A DNA stretch of 32,399 bases from an uncultured Candidatus Saccharibacteria bacterium (lineage in GTDB: Bacteria > Patescibacteriota > Saccharimonadia > Saccharimonadales > Saccharimonadaceae), in the NCBI GenBank assembly GCA_946638615.1, contig CAMPBO010000006.1, positions 1 to 32,399 of the forward strand, in the 5' to 3' direction. Positions 4,955 to 32,399 of the stretch are shown here, one piece after another. Every line of letters begins with the position of its first letter. Position 1 is the first letter of the stretch. The notes under the pieces were generated by a model. The model ran no database searches, was not told the DNA's origin, and saw nothing but the letters and a program-made list of their open reading frames with translations. Position numbers and translations under genes: made by a program.

Positions 4955-5362
4955 TTAGGCATTCTTTTTTGCTAATATTGTTGAAGAAATATATGCTACT
5001 AAGGCACCTAAAATCAAAGCTACTGGCAAAACATCTTCTGGACCAGTGTCTGGTATATCTGAGCTAGTAGCAGGCGTATTATTGGTCGCTACAGGCGTCA
5101 TAGTATTCGTTAAATTACCAACGGTATTTTGGGCTTCGTTTTCTTTGTTATTCTTATCATTTTTAGTATCGGTTTCTTCATCTTCGGTTTCTGAAATTTC
5201 AAAAGCTGAATTTTCTGCATTGCTGATACTTGTTTTGGCAGATTTTTTAACTGCCACGACAATGATTGCGGTAATCAAAATCAAAATAATTGCTACGACT
5301 GCTGTTGCCGCAATGATAATTTTGCGACGTTCTTTCTTTTCTGCTTCTCCTTGGTATTGCAT
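4955..5362 (-). CDS. Small surface-type protein with two membrane segments and a PDTG sorting-like tail
   Basis: The 135-aa protein has a charged N-terminus, a strongly hydrophobic segment at about residues 15-38, then a long disordered linker rich in Glu, Asp, Asn and Thr. It ends with SSDIPDTGPEDVLPVALILGALVAYISSTILAKKNA. The end has the order of a sortase signal: a PDTG motif, a hydrophobic span and a basic tail, although the motif is IPDTG rather than LPxTG. The function is unknown; it is probably anchored in or exposed from the cell envelope. AGGAG stands 8 bases before the ATG and an extended -10 box lies 22 bases upstream, so this gene has a normal leader. An intrinsic terminator follows closely, making it a single-gene unit. 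Confidence 0.75.
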   Translation of the reverse strand: MQYQGEAEKKERRKIIIAATAVVAIILILITAIIVVAVKKSAKTSISNAENSAFEISETEDEETDTKNDKNNKENEAQNTVGNLTNTMTPVATNNTPATSSDIPDTGPEDVLPVALILGALVAYISSTILAKKNA

Positions 5363-5415: not shown

Positions 5416-5934
5416 TTATTTTACATAAAGAGAAAGATGTGCTCTGGCGTACTGGTTAGTTTTTATTAACTTCATTCCAGACAAATCTGGTGCTTTATTT
5501 GGATGAGATAAGACCATTATTCCGCCACTAGCTACATTGTCCGTAATTTTTTCAATTAAGTTACTTTTGAAATTGTCGTATGGCGGATCGGCTAGAACTA
5601 TATCAAATTTTTGATTATCATTAAATGATAACACATCTTCAGTGATAATCTTGGCATTTAAGCCTAAATTTGCTAAATTTTGTTTTATTGTTGAGGCTAT
5701 TTTGGGGCTTTTTTCAATAAATACCACTTCGGCAGCACCTCTAGAAATTGCTTCTATCCCCAGTGCTCCCGATCCTGCAAAAGCGTCAAGGACTCTTGCT
5801 CCAGGTAAAAATTCGGCAATCATATTAAAAAGCGCTAATTTTTCCCTCGCTCCCATTGGGTGTGTCGAATTGGAATTTGGGGATTTAAGGTTTCGTCCAC
5901 GAAATTTTCCTGAAGTAACAATAATATTTTTCAT
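5416..5934 (-). CDS. rsmD: 16S rRNA (guanine966-N2)-methyltransferase RsmD
   Basis: The 172-aa protein is a Rossmann-fold methyltransferase of RsmD length. The SAM-binding loop reads VLDAFAGSGALGIEA (about residues 46-60), the acidic strand VVFIEKSP follows, and the N6/N2-methyltransferase catalytic motif is DPPYDN. The N-terminal FRGRNLKSP and AREKLALFNM segments are typical of the family. The enzyme modifies G966 of 16S rRNA in the assembling small subunit. The gene begins 37 bases after recG and probably shares its transcript; only a weak purine-rich site precedes the ATG. Confidence 0.93.
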   Translation of the reverse strand: MKNIIVTSGKFRGRNLKSPNSNSTHPMGAREKLALFNMIAEFLPGARVLDAFAGSGALGIEAISRGAAEVVFIEKSPKIASTIKQNLANLGLNAKIITEDVLSFNDNQKFDIVLADPPYDNFKSNLIEKITDNVASGGIMVLSHPNKAPDLSGMKLIKTNQYARAHLSLYVK

Positions 5935-5971
5935 AATTAAATAGTTTAAGGAGTTAAAAGCCTACTAAAAG

Positions 5972-8017
5972 TTAGTTTAACGTTGTAATTTGCTGATATT
6001 TTGTGATGCCTTGCATCAATTCACTATATTTTAACATATTTTTAGGGTCTTGTAAAAATTTCATCACGTCAATTTGAGCTTTGTGGATTAATTTAGTGTC
6101 CGATAAAGAAGCAATTCGAAGGTCTAGCGCCCCGTGTTGTAAAGAACCATAGATTTCTCCAGGGCCCCGAAGTTTTAAGTCTACTTCAGCGAGATAAAAC
6201 CCATCAGTGGATTTTTCAAGCTCTCGAAGTCGGCGCGAAGGCGTTAATTCTCCAGAGGTTACAAAATAGCAAAATGCTGGCGAAGCTCCTCTCCCCACTC
6301 GACCTCTTAGCTGATGCAACTGCGCCAAGCCATAAGATTCAGCATTTTCTATTACTATTAAAGTTGCGTTGGGTACATCTACGCCAACTTCCACTACCGT
6401 AGTCGACACTAAAATATCAATTTTGCCGTCTGCGAATTGCTCCATTATTGCATCTTTCTCGGTCGGCTTCATTTTACCGTGCAGAAATTCTACGCGACAT
6501 TTTGGAAAAATCTCCCTTAATTTTCTGGTTCGAGTTTTAACAGATGTTGCTTCTGAAATTTCACTATCTTCAATCGCCTTGCAAATCCAATATATTTGTT
6601 GTCCTCGAGCGTTTTTGCCATGTTTTTTAGTGTCTGGTAAACGCGAGAGGATTTCTTGTATTTTGGGGTACAATTTCTCTTTGGTCTCTGTTTCCTTTAA
6701 AATCGTAGTCTGTATGGATTGGCGTCCTTGCGGTAATTCATTTAGTATAGACACGTCCAAATCTCCAAATAAAGTCAGCTGCAAAGAACGTGGAATTGGT
6801 GTTGCAGTCATCGCAAGTAGATGCGGCGCTAAGTCTGCGGGTGATTTTAACATTAGTTTTTGTCTTTGTTCTACCCCAAAGCGATGTTGCTCATCAATGA
6901 TCACTAAATCTAAGCCCAAAAACTCCGTATCATCAGTTAAGAGAGCATGCGTGCCAACCACGAGATTAATTTTGCCATTTTTGATATTAGTCTTGAGGCT
7001 CTTTTTGTCTTTCGTTGCACCAGTTAGGAGCGCTACTGTAATTTTAAAAGGCTCAAAAAGTTCGCGTAAATTTTCGTAATGTTGATTTGCTAAAATCGCC
7101 GTCGGTGCAAGAAAAGCTACTTGTGCGCCAGCCAGTATAGCTTCATAGGCTGCCATTGCTGCCACCATGGTTTTACCCGAGCCGACATCTCCTTGCAAAA
7201 GTCGGTTCATGGGCGTTTCTTTTTGCATATCTTGGAATATTTCCCAACTAGCCAATCTCTGTGCATTTGTTAATTTAAAAGGTAGGCTTGCGACAAAATT
7301 TTTAATTTTTTTTACATCAAAGGGGATTTTAGTGGCTTTTAATTTGTTGTTTTCCTGACGATTAAGTTTGGCTGCCAAAATTAATTCAAACAATTCTTCG
7401 TAGGCCAAATATTCTCGTGCCTTTTCGGCTGTTTTTAGGGTGTTTGGAAAATGTGCAAAAAATAACGCATCTTTGCGCGTTCCAGGCCGTACCATCGGCA
7501 ATAAATCTGGAATTTCTGCAAATTTTGCTCGCGAATTATTTATAAGTCTTTTAAAATCAGATGATTTTAGTTTGCCATGCGCCACATAAATTGGGCTGAT
7601 GCCAGATATTGGGTCGACATCTGAAGCTAGTATCGCCGAAGGTGAGATTAGACTATATCTTCCATTTTTAAATTCAAAATTTCCCGTAAAAAAATACTCT
7701 TTTTCGGGCTCAAATTGTCTTAATCTGTAACTTTGGTTAAACCAAACTACTTTAATTGCCCCAGTTTTATCCCTAATTACGCCTTCAGTAATTAATAAAT
7801 TACGTCTCTTTGCTCTCCTGGTTGAGAGCGAATCAATTTTGCCTCGTATCACTATTTTGCCAGGTTTAATTTCAGCGATTGAGACAGGTTTTTCGTAATT
7901 TTCATAATCACGAGGCAAATTATAAAAAAAATCCCGCACTGTCCGAATACCATATTTTTTTAAAATCTCTGCAGTTTTCGGACCAATTCCTTTTAATTTT
8001 TCTACACCTAAGTCCAT
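5972..8017 (-). CDS. recG: ATP-dependent DNA helicase RecG
   Basis: The 681-aa protein has RecG architecture. It opens with a helix-hairpin-helix-like start (LKGIGPKTAEILKKYGI) and an OB-fold wedge region. The helicase core has the Walker A motif GDVGSGKT at about residues 275-283, the DEQH box IIDEQHRFGVEQRQ near residue 373, motif III TATPIPRSL, and the C-terminal motif VI QLRGRVGRG. It ends with the family RGPGEIYGSLQHG segment. RecG remodels stalled forks and Holliday junctions. TGATATGAT ends 6 bases before the ATG, suggesting a leaderless message, and a strong terminator from the upstream SLH gene isolates the pair recG-rsmD. No truncation or missing motif is visible. Confidence 0.95.
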   Translation of the reverse strand: MDLGVEKLKGIGPKTAEILKKYGIRTVRDFFYNLPRDYENYEKPVSIAEIKPGKIVIRGKIDSLSTRRAKRRNLLITEGVIRDKTGAIKVVWFNQSYRLRQFEPEKEYFFTGNFEFKNGRYSLISPSAILASDVDPISGISPIYVAHGKLKSSDFKRLINNSRAKFAEIPDLLPMVRPGTRKDALFFAHFPNTLKTAEKAREYLAYEELFELILAAKLNRQENNKLKATKIPFDVKKIKNFVASLPFKLTNAQRLASWEIFQDMQKETPMNRLLQGDVGSGKTMVAAMAAYEAILAGAQVAFLAPTAILANQHYENLRELFEPFKITVALLTGATKDKKSLKTNIKNGKINLVVGTHALLTDDTEFLGLDLVIIDEQHRFGVEQRQKLMLKSPADLAPHLLAMTATPIPRSLQLTLFGDLDVSILNELPQGRQSIQTTILKETETKEKLYPKIQEILSRLPDTKKHGKNARGQQIYWICKAIEDSEISEATSVKTRTRKLREIFPKCRVEFLHGKMKPTEKDAIMEQFADGKIDILVSTTVVEVGVDVPNATLIVIENAESYGLAQLHQLRGRVGRGASPAFCYFVTSGELTPSRRLRELEKSTDGFYLAEVDLKLRGPGEIYGSLQHGALDLRIASLSDTKLIHKAQIDVMKFLQDPKNMLKYSELMQGITKYQQITTLN

Positions 8018-8023
8018 ATCTAT

Positions 8024-8032
8024 ATCATATCA
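8024..8032 (-). promoter_or_regulatory. Extended -10 (TGATATGAT) of recG-rsmD
   Basis: The hexamer TATGAT ends exactly 6 bases before the recG ATG, which fits a leaderless start. Confidence 0.55.
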
Positions 8033-8045
8033 TGAATAAAAGCAG

Positions 8046-8087
8046 AAAAAATCCCCGGAATCATGAAATATAATCATGATCCCGGGG
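8046..8087 (-). terminator. Intrinsic terminator of the SLH protein gene
   Basis: A 14-base arm (8053-8066) pairs with 8074-8087 around a 7-base loop with one mismatch. The stem has a CCCGG/CCGGG-type GC base and is followed on the minus strand by six T. It separates the SLH gene from recG. Confidence 0.88.
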
Positions 8088-8102
8088 GCAGGAGGAGGGT
8101 AA

Positions 8103-9560
8103 TTACTTAACCCACTGGTTAGTGATGGATTCGTAAACCTGACCATCGACATAACCAGTCTGGGATAAAAGGTTGCCGTAAGCGTCATACTTATTCTCAT
8201 AAGTAACGCTCATATCATAGGAGAGAAAATTTTTCTTTCCTATGATGGTTTTGGTGGTTTTATCATCATACTGATTATAGGTGTAGTATTCCGTATAATC
8301 AGTATGATTTCCGCAGAGATATCTCGTTTCGATTAGCCGCCCCCACCTGTCATAAGAATAAAAGAGCTCTTCGATCTCCTTATTCTTTAAATTCTCGGTT
8401 CGTGTTGCGACTAGTCTGTTATCTTTGTCGTATGTTTTTGAAACGGCAAAGACGTCATCTTTTGACTCGGTTGTATACCCATCGCTAGTGTAGGTAAAAT
8501 TAAGATTCACTAATTTCACCTGAAGCGTTGGGGTAACTTCAATTCTTGTGGCTACTTTTACCCTACCATTAGAATCATAAGTGGGGTAATAGTATTTGAA
8601 TTGATTTGTGAGGAGATCTCGCTTAGAAGAGAGCTCTCCACGGGAGTCATATTCAAACCACTCGTCTTCCACGAGCTTGGGGGTTTTTGCGTAGGTGTCA
8701 TAACGAACCGCACGGATAATCTTTCCGCTAGCGTCGTAATGCACCTGCGTTTGGTTTCCGGCCGTGTTGGTATATTCTATTTTACCAGTATAGCCAGAAT
8801 TTTCGTAGTTATAGACCGTTATTTTTTCGGTCGAATCCGATCGAATCAGTCTATAACCACTTCTTTCGCGTTTTCCTATTGTTGCCACGAAATTATCGTT
8901 TCTAGGTCTAACATTAAACATTAATCCCAAACGATGAGATACTGCAGCAAGTTCGGCGCGAGTCGTTGTGCCCTGGGGTGAAAGTTCTGTTCCAGAAGTT
9001 CCTCTCACCAAACCTGTTGCTACTGCCCATGCAAAGGGGCTAGTAGCCCAGACACTAACTTTATCTAAGTCTTTATACTGGGATAAAGTTTGCCAAGGTG
9101 TTAAATCCGCCTTTTTGTAGAACGCGTAACGATAGAGTATCGTTACCAGTTGTTCTCTGGTGACGGGGTCGTTCACCCCCACGGTTCTTTTCTCATCACC
9201 ATAGCCGTAGATTATGCCCTTATCTACGGCCCAATTTATAGCGTAGTAATACGGAGAATTGGGGGTGGGTATGTCTGAAAAATAATAGTAGGTCGTCGCT
9301 GCGATGCTGGGCTTTCCGTCCAGTCTATATAAAGACTGGATAATCTCGCCTCTGGTAGCGTAATTAAAAGGGAGAAACTTTTCCCCCACGCCGTCCATCA
9401 GGCCGAGATTGTGGACGTAACCAACATCATCCACAAACCAATCCGTGTCATACACGTCCTGGTAAGTCCCCTTGCTAGCGGTATTTGCCGCCAGTGCTGA
9501 AGGGGATACTGCAATAGCTGTCATTACGATTGCAAAAACCAAAATAAAAACCTTTTTCAT
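8103..9560 (-). CDS. Secreted SLH-domain surface protein with C-terminal YD-type repeats
   Basis: From the ATG at 9560 the protein has 485 aa. A signal peptide (MKKVFILVFAIVM..., cleavage near SALAA, residue 25) is followed by three S-layer homology domains at about residues 33-80, 93-150 and 160-212, each with the F/Y-x-D-V or I start and a TREQL or TRAEL-like helix. SLH domains bind pyruvylated wall polymers in Gram-positive cells. The second half has repeated Y-D-x-x-G-x-L units (EYDSRGELSS, SYDRWGRLIET, KYDAYGNLLSQ), like degenerate RHS/YD repeats. I chose 9560 because a GGAGG site, a signal peptide and a promoter precede it; the longer open frame lies within the trmD end. The repeats suggest a binding surface. 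Confidence 0.85.
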   Translation of the reverse strand: MKKVFILVFAIVMTAIAVSPSALAANTASKGTYQDVYDTDWFVDDVGYVHNLGLMDGVGEKFLPFNYATRGEIIQSLYRLDGKPSIAATTYYYFSDIPTPNSPYYYAINWAVDKGIIYGYGDEKRTVGVNDPVTREQLVTILYRYAFYKKADLTPWQTLSQYKDLDKVSVWATSPFAWAVATGLVRGTSGTELSPQGTTTRAELAAVSHRLGLMFNVRPRNDNFVATIGKRERSGYRLIRSDSTEKITVYNYENSGYTGKIEYTNTAGNQTQVHYDASGKIIRAVRYDTYAKTPKLVEDEWFEYDSRGELSSKRDLLTNQFKYYYPTYDSNGRVKVATRIEVTPTLQVKLVNLNFTYTSDGYTTESKDDVFAVSKTYDKDNRLVATRTENLKNKEIEELFYSYDRWGRLIETRYLCGNHTDYTEYYTYNQYDDKTTKTIIGKKNFLSYDMSVTYENKYDAYGNLLSQTGYVDGQVYESITNQWVK

Positions 9561-27358: not shown

Positions 27359-28192
27359 TTAAATCCCAAAAAGCTGCTCAGCATTTTTGGTGGTCGTAGC
27401 TTTTATTAAATCAAAATTCGTCTCTAATTTTTTACTGAGCCATATTGCAATCTCGCGAACATAGGCTGGTTCATTAGTCTTGCTACGGAATGGCACTGGC
27501 GCCAAGAAGGGTGCGTCGGTCTCGAGTAAAATTCGCTCTAATGGAGGTGTTGGTAAGGTTGTGTAAGTTGCGAGACCATTTACTCCTATATAAAAGTCAG
27601 TTTCATTTAAAATTCGTTTTAGTGTTTTTTTGCTATCCGTGAAGGAGTGTACCACTCCACGCACTGACGGAAAATTTGCTGTCACCGCAAAAAAGTCATC
27701 GAACGCTTCTCGTACATGAAATGATACAGGTAAATCATTGTCGACTGCGAGTTGCAACATTTTTTCAAACAACTTTATCTGTGCCTCGCGATTATAACCC
27801 TCATAATGATAGTCTAGCCCTACTTCACCTATTGCAATAGGATGATTTGACGAAGAAGAAACGTTGAGGGGGGTTAAAATCGTCCCTACTGGGGGATTCC
27901 GGAGCGCGGCAGCGCGAGGGTTAGCGCCGTCCGCCCGTGGCGACGGGCCGGACGGACGCGACCCCAGTGGGGATGATTTAACTCCCGTTTCTTCTGGATG
28001 TATGCCATATGTCCAATAGACGTTTGAATGTCGGCTTGCAAAATCACGAGCCACCAAAGAATCCTCGTGCGACGTGCCGATGCAGATAATTTTTTCAACA
28101 CCATTTTCATGCGCCCGCTTCAACATCTCTTCTGCCTGGGCTTCCGAGAAGAATTCGCGGTCGTGTAGATGACAATGTGTGTCAATTAACAC
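27359..28192 (-). CDS. tatD: TatD family metal-dependent hydrolase (DNase) with in-frame insert
   Basis: The 277-aa protein is a TIM-barrel amidohydrolase. Metal ligands are visible at His6 and His8 (DTHCHLH), Glu123 (IGEVGLDYH), His159, His182 and Asp226 (LLETDAPFL). TatD proteins act as Mg-dependent 3'-5' DNases in repair. The start is GTG at 28192, overlapping the typA stop by 11 bases, so the genes are coupled. Residues 70-116 hold a Pro/Arg/Ala/Ser-rich insert between the GIHPEETG and AIGEVGLDY motifs, where about 15 residues are usual. The insert is encoded by a GC-rich palindromic element. All catalytic residues lie outside it, so the enzyme may still work. Confidence 0.93.
   Translation of the reverse strand: MLIDTHCHLHDREFFSEAQAEEMLKRAHENGVEKIICIGTSHEDSLVARDFASRHSNVYWTYGIHPEETGVKSSPLGSRPSGPSPRADGANPRAAALRNPPVGTILTPLNVSSSSNHPIAIGEVGLDYHYEGYNREAQIKLFEKMLQLAVDNDLPVSFHVREAFDDFFAVTANFPSVRGVVHSFTDSKKTLKRILNETDFYIGVNGLATYTTLPTPPLERILLETDAPFLAPVPFRSKTNEPAYVREIAIWLSKKLETNFDLIKATTTKNAEQLFGI
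27854..27995. repeat. GC-rich palindromic element inserted in frame in tatD
   Basis: The element is bounded by 10-bp perfect inverted repeats (AGAAGAAACG and CGTTTCTTCT). Inside, a second inverted pair matches GTTAAAATC and TCCC with ACTGGGG on the left to their complements at 27962-27982 with few mismatches. The core contains a hairpin CCGTCCG/CGGACGG with CCCGT/ACGGG. By my count 69 of 90 bases from 27883 are G or C. The whole is 142 bases and keeps the tatD frame open. Confidence 0.75.
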
Positions 28193-29999
28193 GGTTTTCT
28201 CGTTTTCTCTTGATTGGATCGAGCTGACGTTTGCGAAGACGCAAAGATTTTGGCGTGACTTCTAGGAGTTCATCATCAAGTAGAAAATCCAAACATTGTT
28301 CAAGCGAAAGTTGCGTGTAAGGCGTTAGCTGAATCGCTCCGTCCGAAGCATGTGTCCGCATATTGGTAAGCTGTTTTTCGCGACAAATATTAATATCGAG
28401 ATCATCCTTTTTGTTGGAAAGTCCCACAATCATGCCTTGATAGACTGGCACCTGTGGTGGAATAAACAAAATTCCCCTTGCTTGCGCTGCATCGAGTGCA
28501 TAAGCCGTAGAAGTTCCGTCTTCAAACGAAATCAAAGCTCCATTTCGCTCTGGTTTGTAGCGACCCTCCACTGGACGATAGCCCGATGGGATTGAAGACA
28601 TAATTACCGTACCTTTAGTGGCGGTTAGTAGATTATTTCTAAGTCCGATTAAGGCAGCAGTTGATATTTCGTAGACAAACCTCGTCGAACCAGCACTGGT
28701 TAATTCCTGGGACTTTAATTCGGCTTTTCTGATTCCTAACTCTTGTGAGACAGCTCCCACAAATTCTGGATCGACTTCAATTGTGAGCTCTTCAATTGGT
28801 TCACATTTGACGCCGTCAATTTCTTTATAAACTACTTCAGGACGGCCAGCTTCTAGCTCGTATCCTTCACGGCGCATGGTCTCAATTAAAACCGATAGGT
28901 GCAACTCACCGCGACCAGATACCTTGTATCCCAAGCCATCAGGCTGGAGTTTCAAGGCGATGTTGGTTTCGAGCTCTTTTTCGAGCCTTTCTGCAATTTG
29001 TCGTGAAGTCGTAAATTCGCCTTCACGCCCCTTGAGTGGTGAAGTATTCGGCCCAATGTAGATAGACAAAGTTGGCGCTTCAAGTTCAATCGTTGGTAAA
29101 GCTTCAGGATTGTCGCCTGTCGCAATCGTGTCGCCGATGTTTGCTTCAGCCACGCCAGTTACGGCCACAATGTCGCCGGCGATTGCTTCTGGTACTTCTT
29201 CCCGGCCGAGCCCTTTATAAATAAATAGTTTATCAATCTTTCCGCTTTTAACTTCGTTGTCGTGTAAGATTTTGACGGTTTGGCCTTTTTTGAGCTTGCC
29301 GCGGAAAATTTTACCAATACAGTATTTACCGAGATAATTGTCACTAGCTAGAGCTGCCACGAGTAATTGTGCTGATTCGTGATTAGTATCAACCGTAGGG
29401 GCTGGAATATCATTAATGATGGAATCAAAAATTACATGTAGATCATCATCTAGCTCAGTGGTCTTACCCGCCTTGCCCTCTCTTGCGATGGCGTAATAAA
29501 CTGGATAAAATAGCTGTGATTCATCGGTTGCGAGCTCCAAAAATAGACTCTCGACTTCGCTTAATACTTCATCGATACGTGCAGCTGGCTTGTCGATTTT
29601 GTTAATAATTACTACTGGCTTTAGATTGAGTTCCAAAGCTTTTTTAAGTACAAATTTTGTTTGTGGCATTGGGCCTTCTTGTGCATCCACAATAAGAAGT
29701 ACACCATCAGCCATATTGAGCGTCCGCTCTACCTCACCCGAAAAATCGGCGTGGCCAGGAGTATCAATGATGTTAATTTTGTAGCCATTATAATAAACGC
29801 AAGTTTGTTTGGCGGTGATAGTGATTCCCCGCTCATGTTCCTGATCCATCGAATCCATGATGAGGGTTTGCGACATTTCCGCCTGGTTGTCGCGAAAAGT
29901 ATGTGACTGCTTGAGAAGTCCATCTACCAAGGTGGTTTTACCATGGTCAACGTGCGCAATAATTGCCACATTACGAATTAAATCTTTATTCAAAGTCAT
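28182..29999 (-). CDS. typA: Ribosome-associated GTPase TypA/BipA
   Basis: The 605-aa protein is a full-length translational GTPase. It has P-loop AHVDHGKTTLVDGLL, switch region GITITAKQT, DTPGHADFSGEVER and NKIDKPAAR, an EF-G-like domain II, and the BipA C-terminal domain (DAAQARGILFIPPQVPVYQGMIVG, TPKSLRLRKRQLDP). It assists 50S assembly and stress adaptation. TGGTAGAAT ends 7 bases before the ATG, so the message is probably leaderless. The stop codon overlaps the GTG of tatD. It lies 23 bases downstream of the cutinase gene on the same strand. Confidence 0.96.
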   Translation of the reverse strand: MTLNKDLIRNVAIIAHVDHGKTTLVDGLLKQSHTFRDNQAEMSQTLIMDSMDQEHERGITITAKQTCVYYNGYKINIIDTPGHADFSGEVERTLNMADGVLLIVDAQEGPMPQTKFVLKKALELNLKPVVIINKIDKPAARIDEVLSEVESLFLELATDESQLFYPVYYAIAREGKAGKTTELDDDLHVIFDSIINDIPAPTVDTNHESAQLLVAALASDNYLGKYCIGKIFRGKLKKGQTVKILHDNEVKSGKIDKLFIYKGLGREEVPEAIAGDIVAVTGVAEANIGDTIATGDNPEALPTIELEAPTLSIYIGPNTSPLKGREGEFTTSRQIAERLEKELETNIALKLQPDGLGYKVSGRGELHLSVLIETMRREGYELEAGRPEVVYKEIDGVKCEPIEELTIEVDPEFVGAVSQELGIRKAELKSQELTSAGSTRFVYEISTAALIGLRNNLLTATKGTVIMSSIPSGYRPVEGRYKPERNGALISFEDGTSTAYALDAAQARGILFIPPQVPVYQGMIVGLSNKKDDLDINICREKQLTNMRTHASDGAIQLTPYTQLSLEQCLDFLLDDELLEVTPKSLRLRKRQLDPIKRKRENRVN

Positions 30000-30022: not shown

Positions 30023-31768
30023 CTAAAGCTGTCCAGTATTTGGTACTCTTGGTAACGACTGGCTAGCTTGTTTTATATCTGCTGTTTTTTCAGTATCAGG
30101 CACCTTTGGTAAAAGCTGACTAATTATTGGCAGTTCTAGTTCAGCTCCTTCCCCTCGCAAACTGTTTTTAATCGGTGTTAAAATTATGTGATTTTCCTTG
30201 GCTCGGTCAAGCCCATCAATCGTAACTGTTCTTTCTGTTGTTATTCCTAAGATTTTATCGTTCAAAATTACCAAAATTTGGTCGCCATCCGTAGTGAAGT
30301 TAATAGTTGCTTTAGCGCCTGATTCTGACACGTCATCAATGCTAATAGTAGTAGTATTCTTGACTTCTCTTTTTTCTTCCACCCTCGGCAAGCTGTCGTA
30401 CCTTTGGATAATATAGTCCGTTAGCAAACTAAAATCATCGGGCTCCGTCACCACCTTGCCGCCAGTATCTTCGGCTAGCGAAAAATATTCTTCAGCAACA
30501 TCGTCTGTAGTAATAATATAAAAATTCACAGGGTCAATAGTTTTGCTTAGGGTTACAGCCTCGGCATAAGTAATCCCATCACGGTCTGGCGACAAAAATC
30601 CTGCGTCGGTCAAAACCACTAATGATTTGGTCGCCCCGCGCTGCCAACTAAGTGTCGCCATTACATGAAAAGCAGCAGAAAGTAAAGACTCAGGCGTATC
30701 GCCACCGCCGTCAACTGCGATTTCTTCCAGTCCTCGTGCAAAATTCTCGAGGTTGCAAGTTTCAAAATTGCAGTGTTCCACCGGCTGATAAGGGTCACCT
30801 AAATCCCGATAATCATAAAGAGCAACTCTTCCGCCAATATCCAGAGTCTCTTTGGCAAGACGATAGGCTTCGGCTTTATATTTTTCAATCAGACTTGCCA
30901 TCGAACCTGTTGAATCTATTATAATCGCCGTATCGTGTGGTGAATAAAACTGATTAGAAATATTAAAGGTTTTAGTAATCTTATCAAAAATTATTCTTGA
31001 AGCATCTTCATATAAGTCGTCTTCTACGTATGAAACATGGTCATCTATATTGAAATGCGAACTACAGAAAATGTCATTTTTATTACACCAGGTTCCGATT
31101 TTGCCGGTAAATTGTTCTGGCTCATAAGGAATGTAAGCTCCGAGTAGTCCCATATATGCGTGGCAATCTGGTACATAAATACGATAGTCAGATAATTTTC
31201 TGCCTAAGCAGGCATCTGGTATTAAGCCTGCGCCTTCTGGCAAATAAATTTTAGGGTCACCAAAGGTTGCTACATAAATTATTTTATCGGAATCTAGGTT
31301 TTTGAGCCCCCTTGAAATGACCATTGCCCCCTGCGAATACCCGCCTAGGACGTATTTAGTGCCAGGGCAGCTCGAAGAGTCTATCATTTTGTCAAGTTTT
31401 TTCACACCAGACTTCACACTATCGCCAAATTCGTAGGCTTCCCCCGCTCCAAAAAAAGCCCCAGCCGCCACACCCAGATTATCAATTCCGATTGCTGGGT
31501 AATCTAAATCAATAAACTCATAAGCTAGACTCGTGGTGCTTAGCTTTGACTCAATTGCTTCTTTGAAAGCGAGATAGCTTTGCCCAGTATTCTGCTCTTC
31601 TCCCGAGCCGCGCGCAAACACTATTCTTAAATCTGGACATTGTTCTGCTCTTACGTCTAGTTGTAGATTGCTCGCGCCAAGGATAATTGCGACTATAGGT
31701 ATCAAGAATTTAGTTTTGATATTTCGCTTTTGCCCACCAGGTTTTTTCGTGCGGATTTTATTTCGCAT
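30023..31768 (-). CDS. Secreted cutinase fused to a VWA domain, with PNTG tail
   Basis: The 581-aa protein has a basic start and a signal peptide (hydrophobic 20-33, cleavage near residue 41). Residues 44-270 are a cutinase domain of actinobacterial style: FARGSGE, nucleophile in GGYSQGAM (Ser145), Asp232 in CNKNDIFC and His244 in DDHVSY, so the Ser-Asp-His triad is complete. Residues 278-460 are a von Willebrand A domain with the MIDAS motif DSTGS (285-289), Thr358 and Asp388 (LTDAG). A beta-type segment follows. The end repeats LPKVPDTEKT and LPRVPNTGQL but has no hydrophobic anchor. AGGAG precedes the ATG. Cutinases hydrolyse polyesters or lipid esters; the VWA part should bind a surface through metal. 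Confidence 0.9.
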   Translation of the reverse strand: MRNKIRTKKPGGQKRNIKTKFLIPIVAIILGASNLQLDVRAEQCPDLRIVFARGSGEEQNTGQSYLAFKEAIESKLSTTSLAYEFIDLDYPAIGIDNLGVAAGAFFGAGEAYEFGDSVKSGVKKLDKMIDSSSCPGTKYVLGGYSQGAMVISRGLKNLDSDKIIYVATFGDPKIYLPEGAGLIPDACLGRKLSDYRIYVPDCHAYMGLLGAYIPYEPEQFTGKIGTWCNKNDIFCSSHFNIDDHVSYVEDDLYEDASRIIFDKITKTFNISNQFYSPHDTAIIIDSTGSMASLIEKYKAEAYRLAKETLDIGGRVALYDYRDLGDPYQPVEHCNFETCNLENFARGLEEIAVDGGGDTPESLLSAAFHVMATLSWQRGATKSLVVLTDAGFLSPDRDGITYAEAVTLSKTIDPVNFYIITTDDVAEEYFSLAEDTGGKVVTEPDDFSLLTDYIIQRYDSLPRVEEKREVKNTTTISIDDVSESGAKATINFTTDGDQILVILNDKILGITTERTVTIDGLDRAKENHIILTPIKNSLRGEGAELELPIISQLLPKVPDTEKTADIKQASQSLPRVPNTGQL

Positions 31769-31962: not shown

Positions 31963-32399
31963 CTACTTAGCTATACAGCGTACGCTAAATCCGTTGTTCC
32001 GGTAGAGGTTGAGGCTAGGGAGGATCCTACTAGTATCCATGGCGAGGTACCTCATGGCGTTGGTAATGCGCCAAGTAGAGGGCCAAAAGTAGCCGTGCCC
32101 ACTCTGACTGCGAGCCGAACCACCACTGGCGTAGTAGCCTGAGAGAGGGGTAGATAAGGCTCGTCGGAAATCGGTGTAGTCCATGGAATAGGCTGAGTAA
32201 AGGGCTCGGTATTCACCGTCTTCACTAGTGGCATTAGTAGGCATCCGCCAGCCTAGTGGGCAGATATCTTCTTGGACGTCTAGTAAAGTACCCGAGTTAG
32301 GATCAGTAGTTGGGCTACCAGCAGAACTTGTGCCGTTCCCCCAGCAGTAGGTACCAGCGCTGGCAGCACAGTAGTTATAATAGATACCTATTTTGTTGT
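31963..32399 (-). CDS. FISUMP domain surface protein, C-terminus only (cut by window edge)
   Basis: The frame is open from the window edge to the stop at 31963 (145 codons); the ATG at 32244 is internal. The sequence has the FISUMP (Fib_succ_major) pattern: an aromatic and Cys-rich start (YYNYCAASAGTYCWG), DVQEDICPLGWRMPT, a variable middle with YYASGGSARSQSGHGYFWPSTW, and the ending LYRNNGFSVRCIAK. The domain is common in secreted proteins of Saccharibacteria and Bacteroidetes; its function is unclear, probably binding. By my count two 60-base lines inside the gene are 60% GC, well above most of the window. The N-terminus with its signal peptide lies outside. Confidence 0.85.
   Translation of the reverse strand, partial: NKIGIYYNYCAASAGTYCWGNGTSSAGSPTTDPNSGTLLDVQEDICPLGWRMPTNATSEDGEYRALYSAYSMDYTDFRRALSTPLSGYYASGGSARSQSGHGYFWPSTWRITNAMRYLAMDTSRILPSLNLYRNNGFSVRCIAK

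Follow-up and report, generated by a model that had tools for sequence, protein, structure and literature searches.

The window analysed here, a stretch of 32,399 nucleotides from Nanosyncoccus (Saccharibacteria), carries a gene that joins a cutinase domain to a VWA domain, and it raises the question of what such a protein does for its cell, where the gene came from and how the product may be kept at a surface. For the lipid supply of fatty-acid-auxotrophic epibionts, a predicted secreted esterase would be a concrete and testable candidate. The one considered here is carried by almost every species of a single Saccharibacterial genus and is kin to Actinobacterial surface enzymes.

Gene and predicted architecture

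A protein of 581 aa is encoded by the open reading frame at 30023-31768 (minus strand), whose ATG start is preceded by an AGGAG-like site. The features of the gene and its downstream neighbour are listed below, with the basis of each in brackets.

30023..31768, minus strand: Cutinase-VWA gene, 581 aa (open reading frame and Pfam; 85/90 genus genomes)
31646..31768, minus strand: predicted signal peptide, residues 1-41 (sequence; model helix 19-33; disulfide-type cysteines downstream)
30983..31642, minus strand: cutinase / CE5 alpha-beta hydrolase domain, residues 43-262 (PF01083, 2.9e-25; fold matches)
31334..31336, minus strand: predicted nucleophile Ser145 in GYSQG (invariant in 82 genus and 6 order relatives)
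31073..31075, minus strand: predicted catalytic Asp232 between C228 and C235 (invariant)
31037..31039, minus strand: predicted catalytic His244 (invariant)
30392..30946, minus strand: VWA domain, residues 275-459, integrin beta-I-like fold (PF25106, 8.9e-10; match to 3ze2_D)
30902..30916, minus strand: MIDAS-type motif D285-S-T-G-S289 (alignment of genus members)
30119..30361, minus strand: C-terminal beta-strand domain, residues 470-550 (model strands 475-546)
30026..30046, minus strand: clipped sortase-like C-terminal tag VPNTGQL (no membrane segment after the tag)
28182..29999, minus strand: neighbour TypA/BipA, 23 bp downstream of the Cutinase-VWA gene (recurrent neighbour in the genus)

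The cutinase family matched residues 43-258 with 89.6 bits (Pfam cut-off 25.9), and VWA_4 matched residues 282-418 with 38.8 bits (cut-off 27). The C-terminal beta domain stands where relatives have their PKD region, and no PKD domain was matched by Pfam in the window protein. The protein is predicted to be exported via Sec, since its signal peptide combines a long basic n-region, a hydrophobic helix (19-33) and a likely cleavage site after VRA. The cysteines C44, C134, C228 and C235 are conserved, and so are C187 and C202, which are specific to the genus; this pattern would suit a disulfide protein that is exported.

The preliminary description had named a Ser145-Asp232-His244 triad, a FARGSGE opening and a VWA half with a MIDAS site, and all three were recovered. 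The triad residues stand at these positions and are each 100% conserved in 82 relatives of the genus and in six sequences that represent other families of the order. C228 and C235, which bracket the Asp, are kept in 99-100% of the 82 genus relatives, with the spacing of fungal cutinase (C171-D175-C178). The FARGSGE opening is present, and DSTGS at 285-289 matches a DxSxS-type motif and is a putative metal site. This motif is less strictly kept: of the 82 genus members, 79 have D285 and 74 have S289, and it decays in relatives from the rest of the order.

An AlphaFold model (mean pLDDT 83) was built from 43 relatives. Its cutinase half matched the folds of a yeast cutinase-like enzyme (7cc4, Z 21.4), an acetylxylan esterase (1bs9, Z 20.8) and the mycobacterial proteins Mtb Rv3802c (Z 20.3) and MSMEG_6394 (Z 19.3), the latter two over ~200 residues. 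The VWA half matched integrin beta-I, with Z 21.9 and 2.2 A over 182 residues of integrin beta3 (3ze2_D). The window protein is thus predicted to be a secreted serine esterase or lipase of the cutinase (CE5) fold with an integrin beta-I-like VWA domain. The substrate is not fixed by fold similarity of the model.

VWA domains serve many jobs, and the protein might be mainly an adhesin, with a VWA domain that binds a partner and an esterase of secondary importance. The best match by fold is to integrin beta-I domains, and the MIDAS motif is mostly retained, both of which would agree with such a role. We consider it a distinctly improbable one, because the triad is fully conserved whereas the MIDAS is incomplete within the genus and fades outside it.

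Two further observations were made in the window. A fragment of a Fib_succ_major-type surface protein (31963-32397) lies upstream of the Cutinase-VWA gene on the same strand, at the contig end. A G+C-rich insert of ~124 bp (27849-27972), flanked by AAATCATCC repeats, lies within a TatD-like gene (27359-28192), and a second copy was found at G000:C14:8790-8864 (81% over 75 bp).

Distribution and kinship with Actinobacteria

PF01083 was found in 85/90 Nanosyncoccus genomes, nearly always as a single gene, so the Cutinase-VWA frame is not a chance one and is a trait of the genus. The gene is absent from five genus genomes, three of which are at least 94% complete. Beyond the genus, PF01083 was found in 6/60 other sampled genomes of the order and in 12/380 of a phylum-wide sample, the latter mostly from Nanosyncoccus and its family. 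The named relatives are mostly ruminant-gut MAGs. In the genus the gene often has TypA on its downstream side and a divergent deaminase-like gene on its upstream side, a recurrence that points to vertical inheritance within Nanosyncoccus. No literature report of a cutinase in Saccharibacteria was found, an absence that is weak evidence.

It had been proposed that the gene may have come from an Actinobacterial host, with a phylogeny of the cutinase domain as the check, and close kinship with Actinobacteria was indeed obtained in two trees. In a tblastn search of plasmids, a protein of an Arthrobacter plasmid aligned over residues 39-461 (2e-46), and Cutinase-VWA proteins on plasmids of Rhodococcus from soil and sediment were also matched. 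A genome scan gave full-length relatives in Pseudoclavibacter, Microbacterium, Arthrobacter, Actinomycetaceae, Bifidobacteriaceae, Ilumatobacter and Nocardioides. The Actinobacterial homologues checked with Pfam have the order Cutinase-VWA-PKD, and several end in an LAxTG/LPxTG-like motif followed by a TM segment and an Arg tail. Judged by these matches, the fusion is also Actinobacterial and hence no Saccharibacterial speciality. In the annotated Arthrobacter plasmid gene (L190 6895-8325, PKD domain-containing protein), the start is placed too far downstream; the open frame at 5809-8325 contains the entire cutinase domain.

On the tree of both domains, the Nanosyncoccus clade and a further Saccharibacterial sequence (L206) were grouped with Actinobacterial proteins (98/96) and, with Rhodococcus as root, fell within the span of Actinobacteria. 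The same grouping was obtained in a cutinase-only tree rooted on mycobacterial cutinases (97/91). Six sequences from other Saccharibacterial families were placed outside the Nanosyncoccus-Actinobacteria group, and a single Saccharibacterial clade was not rejected by the AU test (p 0.35). The grouping of the Nanosyncoccus clade with Actinobacterial proteins supports gene transfer between the two phyla, in either direction and once or more often. By sequence, the window protein appears to share one ancestry with the wall-anchored Actinobacterial Cutinase-VWA(-PKD) proteins.

The suggestion that the enzyme acts on hosts with mycolate envelopes did not hold up. The close Actinobacterial homologues belong to Microbacteriaceae, Micrococcaceae, Actinomycetaceae, Bifidobacteriaceae, Nocardioides and Ilumatobacter, and none of these groups is known to make mycolates, so the mycolate idea is unsupported. 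Membership of Culp6 was rejected, as the NCBIfam Culp6 model gave 14.1 bits against a cut-off of 570, and a mycolate-specific function of this type is also disfavoured by the taxonomy. No phage match was found that would indicate a LysB-like phage origin, and no PADLOC match that would indicate membership of a defence system.

The clipped sortase-like C-terminus

In 76/82 genus proteins the C-terminus reads P-[NDKRAS]-[TSACK]-G with no more than 14 further residues, a form found in 1% of shuffled ends, and in 66 of these 76 only two or three residues follow the G. P576 (0.99) and G579 (0.96) are conserved columns in an otherwise variable tail, and the catalytic domains of the tag-bearing proteins diverge to ~40% identity. 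The window protein ends with VPNTG, two residues and the stop, and this VPNTG is of the same type as in anchored proteins of the same genome, which carry ordinary PNTG-TM-Lys signals. The hydrophobic segment and charged tail of canonical LPxTG-type signals are absent after it. The Nanosyncoccus protein is therefore without a C-terminal membrane anchor, and the sortase recognition motif is retained at its last residues. A membrane tail hidden behind readthrough or frameshift was, as a rule, not found: hydrophobic continuations were seen in 1, 4 and 1 of the 82 in the three frames, and in the window TypA, 23 bp downstream, leaves no room for one.

Sortases were found in 99/99 genus genomes; the ones read carry a TCTP site as well as a membrane segment. 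Several related ends were noted in passing. A small protein in the window (4955-5362) ends IPDTG-TM-KK and is an ordinary sortase-type substrate. In some genus members (L070, L111, L115 and L117) the C-terminal PNTG is replaced by PNCG or PDCG. Two Rhodococcus Cutinase-VWA proteins (L191 and L193) end in repeated PGTGSA units and are without a membrane segment, which is possibly an independent look-alike of the clipped tag.

Genome-wide tag counts were based on pattern and family searches. A search with PK[AV]P[ND][TS]G revealed, besides Cutinase-VWA, a second secreted family with the same ending, namely Lipase_3 (PF01764), which is present in 43/99 genus genomes. Its members end either with the full anchor PNTG-TM-Lys (KK) or with a clipped PNTGRR.

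L173, L174, L176, L177, L179, L181, L183, L186 and L278-L305: Lipase_3 loci, with two C-terminal forms

On a Lipase_3 tree calculated with the tail left out, five changes between anchored and clipped forms were obtained by parsimony, at least two of them unavoidable given the well supported branches. The strict pattern, P[ND][TS]G followed by two basic-type codons and a stop, gave 30 sites in the 99 genus genomes, against 2 for its reversed control. These comprised 23 sites in Cutinase-VWA (22 by the script rule and L321 read by eye), five in Lipase_3, one in a Fib_succ-type surface protein and one out of frame. The strict tag in the genus is thus almost confined to Cutinase-VWA and Lipase_3 (28/30 sites). 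As an order-wide feature the clipped tag was rejected, because outside the genus the strict pattern is rarer than its reversed control.

Classic anchoring of a sortase substrate needs the hydrophobic tail and retention at the membrane, and the sortases read are membrane-bound. Both points would suit a tag that is a mere remnant on proteins that are simply secreted, without any sortase action. We regard this as doubtful, because the motif persists in 76/82 proteins at a fixed distance to the stop, despite variable tails and catalytic domains that diverge down to ~40% identity, and the second family requires more than one change on its tree. Since the tag is conserved and present in two families, a retained sortase substrate seems somewhat likelier than a remnant. 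No literature report of a tail-less sorting tag was found, although such absence is weak evidence, and the clipped motif looks like a C-terminal signal undescribed in the literature searched. It is common to two unrelated secreted lipases and stands, in Lipase_3, alongside full-anchor orthologues.

Proposed working and comparison with known systems

No ketoacyl synthase was found in 40 genus genomes (0/40), while the controls were positive (14/14), so acyl chains are probably imported. This fits lipid scavenging by a secreted lipid-ester hydrolase. Saccharibacteria are considered to rely on their hosts for lipids (PMC8406219), and binding of TM7x, a relative from another genus, alters the membrane fluidity of its host (PMC10939385).

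We infer the target cell, the substrate and the roles of the VWA domain and the tag as follows. The protein would be released outside the membrane, where the VWA/MIDAS domain would hold it on a surface, either the cell's own or that of a partner. The esterase would then hydrolyse acyl esters of the partner, such as membrane glycerolipids or similar, and the fatty acids or lysolipids set free would reach a cell unable to make them. That an esterase with a VWA tether scavenges partner-cell lipids for Nanosyncoccus has, in our estimate, about even chances of being right. As to the clipped P-N-T-G, a sortase may attach the released enzyme to a surface, or the tag may keep the enzyme a sortase substrate without membrane fixation. 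The more specific idea of a ligation tag, by which released hydrolases would be joined covalently by a sortase to a surface away from where they are made, perhaps that of a partner cell, is a speculative one and probably wrong.

The main rival to lipid scavenging is hydrolysis of dietary plant polymers (acetylxylan or cutin) by a secreted CE5 esterase, with the VWA domain as a binder of substrate or matrix and no bacterial host lipid involved. The acetylxylan esterase match is about as good as the cutinase match, a point against the lipid reading which makes a plant-polymer substrate possible in the ruminant gut, the source of most named relatives. On the other hand, fatty acid synthesis is missing from the genus, a Lipase_3 carries this rare C-terminal tag too, and related fusions also occur on plasmids of Rhodococcus from soil and sediment; plant-polymer hydrolysis is thus judged unlikely, and scavenging of partner lipids is kept as the preferred reading.

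Among known enzymes, fungal and yeast cutinases and CE5 acetylxylan esterases have the fold (Z ~21) and GYSQG in common with the window protein, as well as its Cys-bracketed Asp and its His. They are single-domain proteins without a VWA domain or tag. Mycobacterial Culp6 (Rv3802c, MSMEG_6394) shares the cutinase-like fold and is likewise without a VWA domain. The Actinobacterial Cutinase-VWA-PKD proteins (Arthrobacter sp. zg-Y1110 plasmid, Microbacterium, Pseudoclavibacter, and Actinomycetaceae and Bifidobacteriaceae MAGs) share with it the same order of cutinase and VWA, 30-39% identity over ~480 residues and the IDPVN motif. They mostly end in an LAxTG/LPxTG-like motif with a TM helix and an Arg tail, and those checked carry a PKD domain, whereas the window protein gave no PKD hit and has no TM. 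The Nanosyncoccus Lipase_3 that ends in PKVPNTGRR resembles the window protein in being a secreted Ser hydrolase of this genus and in bearing the clipped tag, but it belongs to another hydrolase family (PF01764), has a GYSRGG nucleophile motif and occurs in anchored as well as clipped forms. If the clipped P-N-T-G were a working ligation tag, it would do in nature what sortase tagging does in the laboratory.
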